This document shows, piece by piece, positions 21,924 to 30,497 of a stretch of 64,000 nt of DNA. Origin of the DNA: Alphaproteobacteria bacterium (GTDB taxonomy: Bacteria > Pseudomonadota > Alphaproteobacteria > TMED109). The translations under genes and the position numbers were made by a program. The stretch spans positions 46,364-110,363 of the forward strand of contig JAGWAT010000002.1 of the NCBI GenBank assembly GCA_021296265.1. Direction: 5' to 3'. Within the stretch, counting starts at the first letter, position 1. The number at the start of each line of letters is the position of its first letter. The notes below the pieces were generated by a model. The model saw only the letters and a program-made list of their open reading frames with translations, did not search any database and was not told the DNA's origin.

Positions 21924-22588
21924 ACCGGCTGTCCCAGGCCATCCGGGGGCTCTTCGAGTCCCAAACCGTTCAGGGTCCGCGCGTGTACCTGCGGCCCCCC
22001 AGACGCTCCGACGCAAGCGCCTGGGTGTCGCTGCGGAAGGAAAGCTACGCCTTCCTCAAGTCGTGGGAGCCGTCGTGGCTGCCCGAGAACTGCACCCGGT
22101 CGTACTTTCTCCGTCAGTACCGCCGCCAGGTGTTCGCGGCCCGCGAGGACCGTGGCTACGCGTTCCACATCTTCCGCAATGCCGATCGCGCGCTGCTGGG
22201 CGCCGTCACGGTCGCGAACGTGCAGCGGGGGGTCGCCCATTCCGGATCGCTCGGATACTGGATCGGGGCGCCCCATGCCCGCCAGGGCTACATGCGTGAG
22301 GCGATCGCGATCCTGGTTCCAATGCTGTTCGGGACACTGAAGCTCCACCGGCTGGAAGCCGCGGCGGTCACCTGCAACTGGCCCAGCCGCCTCCTGCTCG
22401 AGAGCCTGGGGTTCCGTTGTGAAGGCCTGGCCCGCGACTACTTGAAGATCGACGGCCGCTGGCAGGATCACGCCCTGTACGCGATGCTTGCCACCGACCC
22501 CCTGCCCAGTCCCGCGGCGGCGACCGACGTGAAGGTGTGGGCGGGCGCCGGCACGCACTCCCACTCCCTGTCCGGAGCAACGTCATGA
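21920..22588 (+). CDS. GNAT family N-acetyltransferase (RimJ/RimL type)
   Basis: 222-residue acetyltransferase. RPPRRSDASAWVSLR starts the fold, GSLGYWIGAPHARQGYMREA contains the acetyl-CoA pyrophosphate loop, and NWPSRLLLESLGFRCEGLARDY is the C-terminal signature of RimJ/RimL-type enzymes that acetylate protein N-termini or ribosomal proteins. The GTG start overlaps the M16 stop (GTGA). The last 25 residues are a low-complexity tail with no obvious role. Confidence 0.86.
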   Translation: MNRLSQAIRGLFESQTVQGPRVYLRPPRRSDASAWVSLRKESYAFLKSWEPSWLPENCTRSYFLRQYRRQVFAAREDRGYAFHIFRNADRALLGAVTVANVQRGVAHSGSLGYWIGAPHARQGYMREAIAILVPMLFGTLKLHRLEAAAVTCNWPSRLLLESLGFRCEGLARDYLKIDGRWQDHALYAMLATDPLPSPAAATDVKVWAGAGTHSHSLSGATS

Positions 22589-23940
22589 ATCTGTCCCGCC
22601 TCCTGGAAGCCCGCGCCGAAGCCGGAAATCCCGTCCGCGTCGGCATGATCGGGGCCGGCAAATTCGGCACCATGTTCCTGGCGCAGGCCCGCCGTACACG
22701 CGGACTTCATGTCATCGGCATCGCGGACCTCGACGTTGCGAAGGCGCGGGCAAACTGCCGGCGAACCGGCTGGAGCGCCGAACAGGTCGGGGCGACGGGT
22801 CTGGACCACGCGGTGAAGACCGGGACCACGCGAATCGATGACGACGCGCCGGGCCTGATCGCCCATCCGGCCCTGGATGTCCTGATCGAGGCCACCGGCG
22901 ATCCGAAGGCCGGCATCCGCCACTGCCTCGCCGCCATCGAAAACGGCAAGCACGTCGTGATGGTCAACGTCGAGGCCGACGTCCTTGCCGGGCCGCTGCT
23001 CGCGCGGCGGGCCGAAGAGGCCGGCGTGGTGTACAGCCTGGCCTGGGGCGACCAGCCGGCCCTCATCGCCGAACACGTCGACTGGGCGCGGGCCTGCGGG
23101 TTCCGTGTCGTCTGTGCCGGGAAAGGAACACGTTACCACCCGGACTTCCACCGCTCGACGCCCGACACCGTGTGGGACATTTTCCACGTGGGCCGCGAGA
23201 AGGCCGAGCGCGGCGGCATGAACCCCAAGATGTTCAATTCCTTCATCGACGGGACCAAGTCGGGGATCGAGATGACGGCCGTCTGCAACGCCACCGGACT
23301 CACGCCGCAGACCGGTGGGCTCACCTTCCCGCCGTGCTCCCGCTACGACCTGGCCGAGGTGCTGAAGCCCGCAAGCGCGGGCGGCAGCACGGAGCACGTC
23401 GGTACCACCGAAGTCGTGTCCTCGCTGCACCGGGACATGTCTCCGGTCAGCGACGACCTGATGATGGGCACGTACGTGGTCATCGAGGGGGAGAGCGAGT
23501 ACGTGCGGAACTGCTTCGAGGAGTACCTGATGCTCCCCGACAGCACGTTCCACTATGCCGCCCTCTACCGTCCGACCCACCTGATCGGCCTCGAGCTGGG
23601 AATCTCGGTCGCCTCCGCCGCCCTGCGCGGGGAGCCAACCGGATCGCCTACCGGCTTCCGCTCCGACGTGGTCGCTTGCGCGAAGCGGCCCCTCAGAAAA
23701 GGCGACATGCTCGATGGTGAGGGCGGCTACATGGTCTGGGGCAGGCAGACTCCGGCGACCGATTCACTGGAGCTTGGCGGACTGCCGATCGGTCTCGCGA
23801 GTGGCGTTCCGCTGACCCGGGACATCGCCGAAGGCGAACTCCTGCGTTGGTCCGACGTCACCCTCCAGGACGCGGACGATGCGGTCCGCATCCGCCACGA
23901 AATGGAAGCCGCGTTCGGGCGACCCAACGAGCCGACCTGA
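22585..23940 (+). CDS. NAD(P)-dependent oxidoreductase with C-terminal SAF domain
   Basis: A 451-residue enzyme with an N-terminal Rossmann fold (VGMIGAGKFGTMFLAQARR, residues 19-37; acidic residue in GIADLD), a homoserine-dehydrogenase-like middle part and a C-terminal SAF-type domain (roughly residues 365-435: CAKRPLRKGDMLDGEGGY and GVPLTRDIAEGELLRWSDV). Such fusions occur in sugar-acid and amino-acid catabolism; the substrate is not known. The ATG at 22585 overlaps the GNAT stop. It ends the coupled plus-strand chain that began with the oxidase genes. Confidence 0.8.
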   Translation: MNLSRLLEARAEAGNPVRVGMIGAGKFGTMFLAQARRTRGLHVIGIADLDVAKARANCRRTGWSAEQVGATGLDHAVKTGTTRIDDDAPGLIAHPALDVLIEATGDPKAGIRHCLAAIENGKHVVMVNVEADVLAGPLLARRAEEAGVVYSLAWGDQPALIAEHVDWARACGFRVVCAGKGTRYHPDFHRSTPDTVWDIFHVGREKAERGGMNPKMFNSFIDGTKSGIEMTAVCNATGLTPQTGGLTFPPCSRYDLAEVLKPASAGGSTEHVGTTEVVSSLHRDMSPVSDDLMMGTYVVIEGESEYVRNCFEEYLMLPDSTFHYAALYRPTHLIGLELGISVASAALRGEPTGSPTGFRSDVVACAKRPLRKGDMLDGEGGYMVWGRQTPATDSLELGGLPIGLASGVPLTRDIAEGELLRWSDVTLQDADDAVRIRHEMEAAFGRPNEPT

Positions 23941-24192
23941 CCCGGGTTGAAGGTGGCCGCGGCCGGCCCGTCGCCGGTCCGGGGGCGACCGGGCGGCTGC
24001 CTCGCGGAGCCGGCCGACACTAACCTTCGTGACCGACGGACAGCCTGCAACGTTCCTCGGGGCGTTCCTGCCGTCGCAGGCGGCGCCGGGAAAGGCCGCT
24101 GTCGGATGGCGGTCTCAGAGGCATCATGCACAGGTGGTACCGGCTGTCTTACCCTGACGGCCGGGTCACGAACTTATCTGAAGGCGACGACC

Positions 24193-25194
24193 ATGGCAGC
24201 TGCCTTCCACAATCCCATCTCCCGGGCGATCCGTCCCGAAGACACGGCCGACACACTGTCCAGGTACCGCCGGAGCCAGAAGCGGAGCAAGGAAGATTAC
24301 GCCCGGATGGTGGAGGGGTTTTACGACCTGATTACCGACTTCTACGAGTACGGATGGGGTCAGTCGTTTCATTTCGCGCCAGGGAAGGACGGGGTATCGT
24401 TTGAGGAAGCCATCGCCCACCATCAGCATCTTCTGGCCGAAGCACTTGGCCTCCGGCCAGGCATGAAGGTGCTGGATATCGGCTGTGGCGTCGGCGGACC
24501 CCAGCGCGCCATTGCGAGCGAATTCGGCGCCTCGATTGCGGGCCTCAACATCAGCGAATATCAGGTCGGGAAGTGCTCCGAGTACAACCGGAAGGCCGGT
24601 CTGGACCACCTCTGCAGCGTCCTGCAAGGGGATTTCATGGCCATACCGGCGGATGCCCGGACCTTTGACGCGGCCTACCAGATCGAGGCCATTCCGCATG
24701 CGCCGAACAAGGTGGCCGTCTACACCGAGGCATTCCGGATCTTGCGGCCGGGGGCCATCTTCGCCGGCTTCGACTGGTGCATGACCCCTTTGTACGACGG
24801 CGACAACCCGAAACACCGGGAGCTCAAGCAGCGGATCGAATACAGCAACGCGCTGCCGCCGATCGCTTCCTTCACGGATGTCACTGACGGTCTGGAGGCG
24901 GTCGGTTTCGAGTTGCTCGAGGCGCGTGACCGTGCCGGGGACGATGACGTGGAGCGGCCGTGGTATCAGCCGCTGGAAGGCGGCGGCCTGACGCTCAGGA
25001 GTTTGCCGAGGACATCTCTGGGTCGGAAAATCACCGCGGCGGCGCTGCGCATCCTGGAACACGTGCGCGCCGTACCCGAAGGATCATTCGAGATACAGGC
25101 ACTTCTCAACGTGGCGGCGGACAGCTTGGTGGCCGCAGGGCGGCTGGGGATCTTTACGCCGATGTACTTCCACAAGGCACGTAAACCGGAATAG
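24193..25194 (+). CDS. Sterol C-24 methyltransferase homologue (Erg6/SMT-like)
   Basis: A 333-residue SAM-dependent methyltransferase. Beyond the general SAM motif (VLDIGCGVGGPQRAIA, 93-108) it carries SMT-specific blocks: YDLITDFYEYGWGQSFHF (44-61), matching the sterol-binding aromatic box of Erg6; IEAIPHAP (164-171), where Erg6 has IEATCHAP; PWYQPLEG (256-263); and a full Sterol_MT_C domain ending GIFTPMYFHKARKPE. It is about 50 residues shorter than yeast Erg6, mostly at the N-terminus. ATG at 24193 has GAAGG 9 bases upstream. No squalene epoxidase, oxidosqualene cyclase or other sterol gene is in the window. By homology it would methylate the C-24 side-chain carbon of a sterol; whether it does, and on whose sterol, is unknown. 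A tocopherol or phosphatidyl-type methyltransferase is less likely given the C-terminal domain. Confidence 0.85.
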   Translation: MAAAFHNPISRAIRPEDTADTLSRYRRSQKRSKEDYARMVEGFYDLITDFYEYGWGQSFHFAPGKDGVSFEEAIAHHQHLLAEALGLRPGMKVLDIGCGVGGPQRAIASEFGASIAGLNISEYQVGKCSEYNRKAGLDHLCSVLQGDFMAIPADARTFDAAYQIEAIPHAPNKVAVYTEAFRILRPGAIFAGFDWCMTPLYDGDNPKHRELKQRIEYSNALPPIASFTDVTDGLEAVGFELLEARDRAGDDDVERPWYQPLEGGGLTLRSLPRTSLGRKITAAALRILEHVRAVPEGSFEIQALLNVAADSLVAAGRLGIFTPMYFHKARKPE

Positions 25195-25316: not shown

Positions 25317-26357
25317 TCAGGCTGACGACACGTCGGGGCACTGGATGCGGTAGGTTCTCGCCGCGGTGTCATGGAACAGCGCCCGCTTCTCGTCCTCGGA
25401 GTAGTGCGCCACCAGGCGCTTGAAGGAATTCCACAGCACCGTGTAGCTGCAACTGACCTTGTCGACCGGAAAGTTCGATTCAAACATGCAGCGCTCGACG
25501 CCGAACTGCTCGATCGTCGCTTCGTAGTACCGTCGCGTCGCCTCCACCAGCTCCCGACTGTAGGGCGGTCGGCTGCGACCGTGCCAACCGAAGCCGTTGA
25601 CCTCCATGTTGATCCCGCCAAGCTTCGCCACAACGTTCGGGCATTGTGCAAGCTCCGCGATTCGCCCGCGCCAGGCATCGAAGACCTCGTCCGCCCGGCC
25701 CGCGTACGGCCCGACGCCGAGCGGCCCGCCAAAGTGATCCAGGATCACCGTCTGATCCGGAAAGGTCCGCGCCAGGTCCACGGCTTCGGCCAACTGCGGG
25801 TGGTAACACCACAGATCGAATGTGAGGCCCCGGGGCGCCAGGTGGCGGAAGCCGGCACGAAAACCGTCGCTCGTCATCAGGCCGGGGGGCGGCGCCGCCC
25901 GCGCGACCGGGAGCTCCGGACTCTCATCCCGCGCAACCACGTGGCGTATACCCCGGAAGCGGGCCGGGCTGGCCTCGAGCTGAGCGTCGAGCGTGGCCGC
26001 GACCCCGTCGCCCTCGTCGAGGGCGGCCGTCCCCACAATGGCGGCAGCGACCCGGGTCTCGCCGTACAGCCCCGAGGCCGCCATGGCCGCGAGGCCATTC
26101 ACGAACTCCGTTTCTCCCACGACCCGCGTGTGCTCGTCCCCGGCCCGCCGATACATCGCACCGCACTCGACGTAGACCGTGCTGACCACCCGGTGGCCGC
26201 CGCTGAGGTCCGCAAGGAGTTCATCGAGGAGATAGCGGGGTTGGACCATCACGTCGCGACGGTCCCAGAAGTGGTGATGGGGATCGCAGATCAGAAGCTC
26301 CGGCTCCAGTGCGTCCTCCTGAACCAGGGCAAGCCAATCGGCGTTCTTCGCATGCAT
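25317..26357 (-). CDS. Amidohydrolase family protein (amidohydrolase-2 / TIM-barrel hydrolase)
   Basis: 346-residue metal-dependent hydrolase of the amidohydrolase_2 family (lactonases, decarboxylases). The first metal-site motif CDPHHHFWD is at residues 24-32; IRHVVARDESPE and TVILDHFGGPLG follow, and the C-terminal aspartate motif ERCMFESNFPVDK is the end-of-barrel signature. L-fuconolactonase-like and uncharacterised aromatic-acid hydrolases share this layout; the substrate cannot be chosen. Transcribed towards the SMT gene, with about 120 bases between the two stops. Confidence 0.84.
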   Translation of the reverse strand: MHAKNADWLALVQEDALEPELLICDPHHHFWDRRDVMVQPRYLLDELLADLSGGHRVVSTVYVECGAMYRRAGDEHTRVVGETEFVNGLAAMAASGLYGETRVAAAIVGTAALDEGDGVAATLDAQLEASPARFRGIRHVVARDESPELPVARAAPPPGLMTSDGFRAGFRHLAPRGLTFDLWCYHPQLAEAVDLARTFPDQTVILDHFGGPLGVGPYAGRADEVFDAWRGRIAELAQCPNVVAKLGGINMEVNGFGWHGRSRPPYSRELVEATRRYYEATIEQFGVERCMFESNFPVDKVSCSYTVLWNSFKRLVAHYSEDEKRALFHDTAARTYRIQCPDVSSA

Positions 26358-29024: not shown

Positions 29025-30497
29025 TTAATTCGGTACGGCGCGGAATCCAGGTTCCGCGCCCCCGCTTCCGTCGCCGACGAATCGCCGCATCTTCTCCAGC
29101 TGGTCGCGTACCGCGTTGTGCCCGACGATGTAGCAGTAGAGACTGGTCGGTATGTAATCCAGGCGCACTTCTCCCGGCCACTGAACGTCATCGTCCGTCA
29201 GTGTTCGCGTGGTGACCAGCGGCTTCGCGCCTCGGTGCCGGCTCGTAAACGCCAGGAGGCTGTTCAGTTCGTTCGCGACCTGGCCAGGTCGATCAGACCA
29301 CTTGACTTCGACGCACCACGAAGGCTGCTGCCGCCTGTCAAGGTGGACGATATCCACTTCACCGTTTTTCCACCGCGCGTAGTGCAGAGCGACATTGGAG
29401 TGAAACCACTGCGCAAAGACTGCCGTCTCGGCGAGCGGCCCCATCTCTTCGTCGTCATCCGTGACCAGACCGAATAGCGCGCTGCGCAGTGACGGAGTGG
29501 TGACATACACCTTGAAATGCGTGGCGCGCTTGAAGCGGCGGGCATGGTGGTCGATGCGATGGACGACCTTGATCAGGAACGCCGCTTCGAGGTACTCGAG
29601 ATAACGCCTGATCGTCGGCTTGGTCACCCCGGAGCGGCGGGCCAACGTATCGATCGACACTTCCTGAGCCGTATTGTACGCCAAGGTCGCAAACAACGCG
29701 TTGAGTTCCTGCACGTCCTGGATGCCGTACAGGCTCGGGAGATCGCGCAGCAAGACCTTCCCGACGATGTCCGTGCCGATGTAGCGGCCGGGGTCCGAAC
29801 GGACGGCCGGCGAGGTAGCGGCTTCCGGGTAGCCGCCGAAATTGACATAGTCGACGAAATGCCGGTTGAGTTGCCCAATGTCGCGGGTCGAGTACTGATC
29901 CGTTGCCTGGTCGTGTTCGATGAGTCCGCGGATCCCCCGCAAATCAAGGTATTCATGGAACGTCAGGGGCGGCAGCAGGAAATCCGTAAAGCGGCCGGCG
30001 CCTGACTCGATGCTCTTGAGCCGCAGCGCGGCCGCCGCCGAGCCCGATACCACGCACTTGACGTTGGGATGCGCGTCCACGAACGCCTTCAGGTGGCGCT
30101 CCCAGTCGGCCAGGTACTGGATCTCGTCCAGAAACAGCACCCGAAGACCATCCGCGTTGCCGCTCGACTGGCGGATTTCGTCGGCAGCCTCCTCGATCGA
30201 GAGCCGCGTGTAGAGCGGCTGGTCCAGCGACATGTAGCCAAGGTCTTCGGGCCGGTATTCGTCGCCGGCGAGCAGATGCGCAATAACGTGATGCAGCAGC
30301 ACGGTTTTGCCGACACGGCGTGACCCCATCAGCACCACGGCACGACGGACGCCGGGCTCTTCCACGAGGCGCCGGAAACGGTCGAAGTACGCGCGTGGTC
30401 TCAGTTCGCTGAAGTCGGCACGAATTCTGCCATCCGCCCACCACGGGTTTTCGGCTCGAATGCGGTGGCGCCGCTGCTCCGATGAGATCTCACGCAT
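29025..30497 (-). CDS. AAA_14 / DUF4143 ATP-binding protein
   Basis: A 490-residue orphan ATPase. Walker A GSRRVGKT is at residues 58-65, Walker B in GLRVLFLDEIQYL, sensor-1 in CVVSGSAAAAL, and a C-terminal DUF4143 region with a restriction-endonuclease-like core (EVDIVHLDRRQQ ... CVEVKWSD). Such proteins are widespread, move horizontally, and occur often in uncultured bacteria; suggested roles include defence or toxin-like functions, none proven. The protein is full length. It has its own promoter and dyad just upstream and lies in a locally AT-richer, gene-poor area, consistent with acquisition. Confidence 0.88.
   Translation of the reverse strand: MREISSEQRRHRIRAENPWWADGRIRADFSELRPRAYFDRFRRLVEEPGVRRAVVLMGSRRVGKTVLLHHVIAHLLAGDEYRPEDLGYMSLDQPLYTRLSIEEAADEIRQSSGNADGLRVLFLDEIQYLADWERHLKAFVDAHPNVKCVVSGSAAAALRLKSIESGAGRFTDFLLPPLTFHEYLDLRGIRGLIEHDQATDQYSTRDIGQLNRHFVDYVNFGGYPEAATSPAVRSDPGRYIGTDIVGKVLLRDLPSLYGIQDVQELNALFATLAYNTAQEVSIDTLARRSGVTKPTIRRYLEYLEAAFLIKVVHRIDHHARRFKRATHFKVYVTTPSLRSALFGLVTDDDEEMGPLAETAVFAQWFHSNVALHYARWKNGEVDIVHLDRRQQPSWCVEVKWSDRPGQVANELNSLLAFTSRHRGAKPLVTTRTLTDDDVQWPGEVRLDYIPTSLYCYIVGHNAVRDQLEKMRRFVGDGSGGAEPGFRAVPN

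Follow-up and report, generated by a model that had tools for sequence, protein, structure and literature searches.

The window analysed here is a 64,000-nucleotide stretch of DNA from an alphaproteobacterium. At 24193-25194 (+) it encodes SMT1, a protein of 333 amino acids plus a stop codon. The translation, a Pfam match and its place in a tree of sterol methyltransferases (SMTs) mark SMT1 as a genuine bacterial sterol 24-C-methyltransferase homologue, and as a new member of a published kind, the bacterial SMTs. It is fairly probable, in our view, that SMT1 alkylates imported delta-24 sterols in an alphaproteobacterium of a sponge-associated type, one without sterol synthesis of its own, and that it was once paired with a Rieske oxygenase. 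We infer the activity, the substrate, the import of sterols and the host.

Every signature of 24-SMTs that we checked is present in SMT1, Region II in a variant form. The motifs and the domain named in an earlier note on this DNA were confirmed by translation and Pfam. The Region I aromatic box YEYGWGQSFHF spans residues 51-61 (24343-24375, +) and the Region II motif IEAIPHAP spans residues 164-171 (24682-24705, +). PWYQPL and FTPM...ARKPE are both found. The Sterol_MT_C domain (PF08498) is complete and covers residues 272-333 (25006-25191, +), with an E value of 1.9e-20; its score is 73.2 bits, where 21.7 would have been enough. Pfam also matched a class I methyltransferase core. The SAM-binding motif VLDIGCGVGG (residues 93-102; 24469-24498, +) occupies columns that are largely invariant among 34 SMTs. 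An AlphaFold2 model of SMT1 has the class I methyltransferase fold, with a mean pLDDT of 83. The closest solved structures to this fold are generic natural-product methyltransferases; a search by sequence among solved structures found no SMT.

Two further features had been singled out as special, namely a short N-terminus and the change from T-C to I-P in Region II. Neither stood up to comparison. SMT1 starts at the same place as its close relatives. In Region II the E, H, A and P of IEATCHAP are kept and only T-C is replaced. Among 97 collected SMTs the usual form has [M/T/I/L]-P at this point, as in IESMPHAP, IEATPHAP and IEALPHAP, and IEAIPHAP is a common bacterial form. By clade (see below), the motif is mostly IESMPHAP in clade I and IEA[I/F/L/M/T]PHAP, with a few others, in clade III.

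Membership of another methyltransferase family was rejected. Matches of SMT1 to the tocopherol type, and to the sarcosine, cyclopropane and phosphoethanolamine types, were far weaker and partial only. The phylogenetic check agreed: SMT1 groups with SMTs, and not with other methyltransferases, in a tree without a far outgroup.

SMT phylogeny and conservation of SMT1

A scan of our collection found 411 encoded SMT relatives, and 79 loci were kept. The maximum likelihood tree contains 66 SMTs, without the enzymes assayed by Brown et al.; it is unrooted, since the length filter removed the distant methyltransferases intended as outgroup. SMT1 falls in clade III (support 100/98) and a second SMT of the window genome falls in clade II (100/100). 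Clade I holds most of the SMTs that adjoin squalene epoxidase-oxidosqualene cyclase (SQLE-OSC) clusters. Deep branches are without resolution. Hand-typed reference sequences for yeast Erg6 and Arabidopsis SMT1 pair together (99/96) and apart from clade III. Compared with these references, the window protein shares Region I, the SAM motif and Sterol_MT_C, and C-24 chemistry would be expected; it differs in having IEAIPHAP in place of IEATCHAP and in belonging to a separate clade. A third divergent SMT clade, clade IV (100/100), was also seen. It includes L017:1504-2520 (-), with relatives in L051, L084, L091 and L100. Those in L051, L084 and L091 adjoin a different Rieske oxygenase with a KshA_C domain, so that Rieske and SMT genes are paired in a second way.

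Members of clade III come from records labelled Alphaproteobacteria, Gammaproteobacteria, Binatia, Dadabacteria, Latescibacterota and Gemmatimonadota. Many are from MAGs of Ircinia sponges, including close relatives of SMT1 in MAGs with jk18x isolate names, which denote Caribbean Ircinia (PMC9531527). Enrichment of SMTs, and steroid gene clusters (CSGs), in Ircinia symbionts have already been published, and horizontal transfer has been proposed for the CSG genes (PMC9531527). The earlier interpretation is supported in that SMT1 is a bacterial homologue of 24-SMTs, has ties to lineages that live with sponges and bears on 24-alkyl sterane biomarkers. Clade III SMTs in Binatia- and Dadabacteria-labelled records are 75-76% identical to SMT1. 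This is comparable with the less close SMTs of the genus (76-78%) and suggests either exchange across phyla or contigs placed in the wrong bin.

The window genome is a 2.54-Mb MAG with no contamination estimated. SMTs occur in all seven genomes of its genus and in none of 21 genomes from other genera, many of them small and incomplete; these 28 genomes of the family are the whole sample of the order. SMT1 itself is present in six of the seven. The remaining congener, G027, keeps the second SMT. The upstream neighbour of SMT1 is a DRL-type oxidoreductase with a SAF domain (22537-23940, +), and the downstream neighbour is an Amidohydro_2 protein (25317-26357, -). NnrS, urease, an ABC transporter and housekeeping genes also lie in those parts of the window annotated with Pfam. 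The oxidoreductase, amidohydrolase, NnrS, urease and other neighbours are syntenic in five congener loci (L022, L023, L024, L031 and L040). SMT1 is a bacterial gene that is conserved within the genus. Eukaryotic contamination was rejected on three grounds: the genes around SMT1 are bacterial, the five congeners show synteny here, and the GC content of its stretch (0.653) falls within the range of the window. Downstream of NnrS, an AAA_14/DUF4143 ATPase gene is found at 29025-30497 (-); no relative grouped there in the congener loci.

Sterol biosynthesis genes

The earlier note saw no other sterol genes nearby. This is correct for the Pfam-annotated parts of the window. It is not correct for the genome, where a second SMT and steroid-type genes lie on contig C12. 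A scan for the genes of sterol synthesis itself was negative. In the window genome, which is 93.8% complete, there was no match for OSC or hopene cyclase (OSC/SHC; PF13249), SQLE (PF08491), an SQLE-OSC fusion query or ERG4/ERG24. Because squalene epoxidase, oxidosqualene/hopene cyclase and an ERG24 homologue were not detected, the sterols of this organism probably come from outside. Missing SQLE and OSC genes in a MAG of this completeness fall short of proof. Two options had been offered, and the gene content disfavours one, synthesis of the organism's own alkylated sterols, and favours the other, alteration of sterols from a host or neighbour.

The SQLE-OSC fusion was found in three of the seven genomes of the genus (G023, G024 and G025) and was not seen in G000, G022, G026 or G027. 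We consider it unlikely that the window organism makes sterols de novo, with SMT1 as a terminal enzyme of that synthesis and SQLE and OSC in an unassembled part of the MAG. The fusion in three congeners, the presence of HpnC/D-like squalene synthase genes and an assembly that is 93.8% complete all speak for such a pathway. Against it, none of OSC, SQLE and ERG24 was detected, and SQLE-OSC was likewise not seen in three other congeners, which are 92-97% complete; two of the three keep SMT1. The squalene synthase genes are adjacent SQS_PSY (squalene/phytoene synthase) genes, probably HpnC/HpnD, at G000:C62:37652-39569 (-), in the window genome, where no SHC/OSC was found.

Use of imported sterols, which we prefer for the window organism, would not be a property of clade III as a whole, because SQLE-OSC occurs in the three congeners and in five of 13 further genomes, of unstated completeness, with a clade III SMT. 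The other eight had no match or weak matches only. Clade III SMTs thus appear to occur in sterol makers and non-makers alike. At many SMT loci of MAGs, the SQLE and OSC domains are in a single ORF of ~1,130-1,280 amino acids, for example L062:10952-14572 (-).

Known bacterial systems resemble this one in part. Brown et al. (2023, PMC10070321) report that, in vitro, bacterial SMTs can methylate, ethylate and propylate sterols. These sterol side-chain methyltransferases include several from demosponge symbionts, and one from a Chlamydiae MAG that is without other sterol genes, yet works in vitro. Unlike SMT1, many of them are clustered with sdmA/sdmB or OSC genes, and the text consulted describes no Rieske-linked clade. 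In the Ircinia CSGs, SMT1/ERG6 flanks an ERG24-CYP51-LSS operon (PMC9531527), whereas the window SMT1 has no SQLE beside it, in a genome without detectable OSC, SQLE or ERG24. We found no description, in the literature searched, of a Rieske-linked SMT clade that stands apart from the biosynthetic cluster, or of the second cassette; these are new here.

Steranes alkylated at C-24 are taken as fossil traces of eukaryotes, and 24-isopropylcholestane as a trace of sponges. Yet bacterial SMTs have been shown to form such side chains in vitro (PMC10070321). Two SMTs in an apparent non-maker of sterols from a sponge lineage add doubt to the eukaryote reading of such sterols. If bacteria that do not make sterols alkylate imported ones, genome searches for OSC or SQLE would overlook some of the contributors to 24-alkyl sterols.

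Deletion of the Rieske oxygenase partner

In five congeners a Rieske oxygenase gene, encoding Rieske and KshA_C domains, lies immediately upstream of SMT1. As called, the two frames overlap by 11 bases in L022, L023, L024, L031 and L040, which suggests translational coupling. In the window genome this partner has been lost by deletion. Alignment with L023 and L031, together with blastn, identified, at 23990-24108 (+), DNA that is homologous to the 5' flanking region of the congener Rieske gene. Alignment and frame translation identified a decayed 3' remnant of the gene, ~28 codons long (RGIMHRWYRLSYPDGRVTNLSEGDDHGS), at 24117-24200 (+). The remnant overlaps the start of SMT1 and its stop codon is gone. 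Between the two stretches, ~950 bp are missing. No other close copy of the lost gene was found in the window genome; the best match was a paralogue on contig C12 (E value 5.4e-16).

The pairing is frequent in clade III. With 10-kb flanks, cut by contig ends, this Rieske gene was counted beside 10 of 18 clade III SMTs and beside one of 43 in clade I. Conversely, SQLE was beside none of the 18 and beside 31 of the 43. The congener Rieske protein at L022:8959-10011 has both iron motifs, C-X-H-X16-17-C-X2-H and E/D-X3-D-X2-H-X4-H, as given for Neverland (PMC7609953). KshA-type enzymes can carry these motifs as well, and the motifs do not separate KshA from Neverland. Congener copies of the deleted partner thus resemble KshA and DAF-36/Neverland in domains and in motifs; the best solved relative, KshA (E value 5.5e-26), is distant. 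Possible reactions of the partner are C7-desaturation, 9alpha-hydroxylation or another ring oxidation. Our literature search found nothing that joins bacteria, sponges, sterols and cholesterol 7-desaturase.

Nematodes provide a parallel. Their 4-SMT (STRM-1) is also a SAM-dependent sterol methyltransferase, and works alongside DAF-36, a Rieske enzyme, in a pathway for the remodelling of dietary sterol (PMC6997595). The Region I aromatics (Y81EYGWG86 in Erg6p) are needed for C-24 methylation and are reported to be missing from this nematode C4-methyltransferase (PMC6997595). Since they are intact in SMT1, C-24 is favoured as the methylation site. SMT1 might instead be an SMT-family enzyme with another target, either sterol ring C-4, like the nematode protein, or a non-sterol isoprenoid. 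Regiospecificity can change within the family (PMC6997595) and the fold is common to many natural-product methyltransferases. Intact Region I aromatics, a complete Sterol_MT_C domain and a frequent genomic partner from a steroid-oxygenase family make another target quite improbable. To our knowledge, no clade III member has been assayed, and this counts on the side of another target.

Pairwise dN/dS for SMT1 and its relatives, estimated by two methods, was ~0.06-0.30. Hence, the protein is under purifying selection. That SMT1 is a decaying leftover, without function in this species since the loss of the Rieske gene, is highly improbable. In its favour, the remnant lies directly upstream, G027 has no SMT1 and the values against L023 and L031 (0.22-0.30) are at the high end of the set; against it, the frame is intact, all signature residues are kept, omega is well below 1 and the intact pair L023-L031 gives a similar omega (0.22-0.27).

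In the reading that we prefer, alkylation of imported sterols, SMT1 would use SAM to methylate the side chain of delta-24 or delta-24(28) sterols, obtained from the host or from sterol-making neighbours. Attack of the methyl group at C-24 would generate a cation, stabilised by the aromatic residues of Region I, and proton loss would yield a 24-methylene or 24-methyl product. SMT1 would be what is left of a pair made up of a Rieske oxygenase and an SMT. The Rieske partner in congeners, a member of the KshA/Neverland sterol family, may act on the rings of these sterols by oxidation or desaturation. The Rieske gene was deleted from the window genome, and SMT1 remained under purifying selection.

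A wider proposal is possible, and we make it tentatively. Sponge symbionts of several phyla may share, by horizontal transfer, a two-gene unit that consists of a KshA/Neverland-type Rieske oxygenase and a dedicated clade of SMTs. Partly in cells that do not make sterols, the unit would modify host sterols by oxidation or unsaturation of the rings and by alkylation at C-24. If so, part of the 'sponge' sterol signature would come from bacteria that do not produce sterols. The genus offers a direct test case: the same SMT is in the same chromosomal place with or without SQLE-OSC, and the Rieske partner is present in five genomes and missing in one.

The second SMT locus

The second SMT of the window genome, on contig C12, is 47% identical to SMT1. 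Its locus also encodes a P450 whose frame includes a GPP34 domain, a Rieske/KshA_C oxygenase, a 3beta-HSD-like reductase and an FAD-dependent protein of the amine-oxidase family. A LolA-like protein is present too, as is an MMPL transporter whose match to the sterol-sensing domain falls below the cut-off. BstA, a known bacterial sterol transporter, is likewise of the MMPL family (PMC10942540). From this gene company we infer that the C12 cassette takes part in sterol handling. Together, the second SMT and the steroid-type genes, including the MMPL transporter, could serve import, placement or further remodelling of sterols.

In the genus, Region I of the second SMT reads FFEYGWG, with Phe at the position of yeast Y81. 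In an amoeba SMT2, a Tyr-to-Phe change in Region I shifts the mix of products (PMC6495176). Hence, by analogy, a different product of the second SMT is possible.

Other features of the SMT loci were observed. The single frame that joins GPP34 (Golgi phosphoprotein 3) to cytochrome P450 adjoins the second SMT at L019:2294-4465 (-), on contig C12, and recurs at L051:12222-14252 (+); of the loci studied, 13 have a member of this protein family. A masked stretch of 76 N bases (L019:697-772) sits inside an apparent transposase fragment, with the LolA-like gene on one side and the second SMT on the other. A family of multi-pass membrane proteins is encoded near SMTs in 18 loci, for example at L036:11131-11802 (-), L032:5249-5923 (-) and L098:6459-7541 (-), the last having no Pfam match. 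Presumably, this family resembles the emopamil-binding sterol isomerases.
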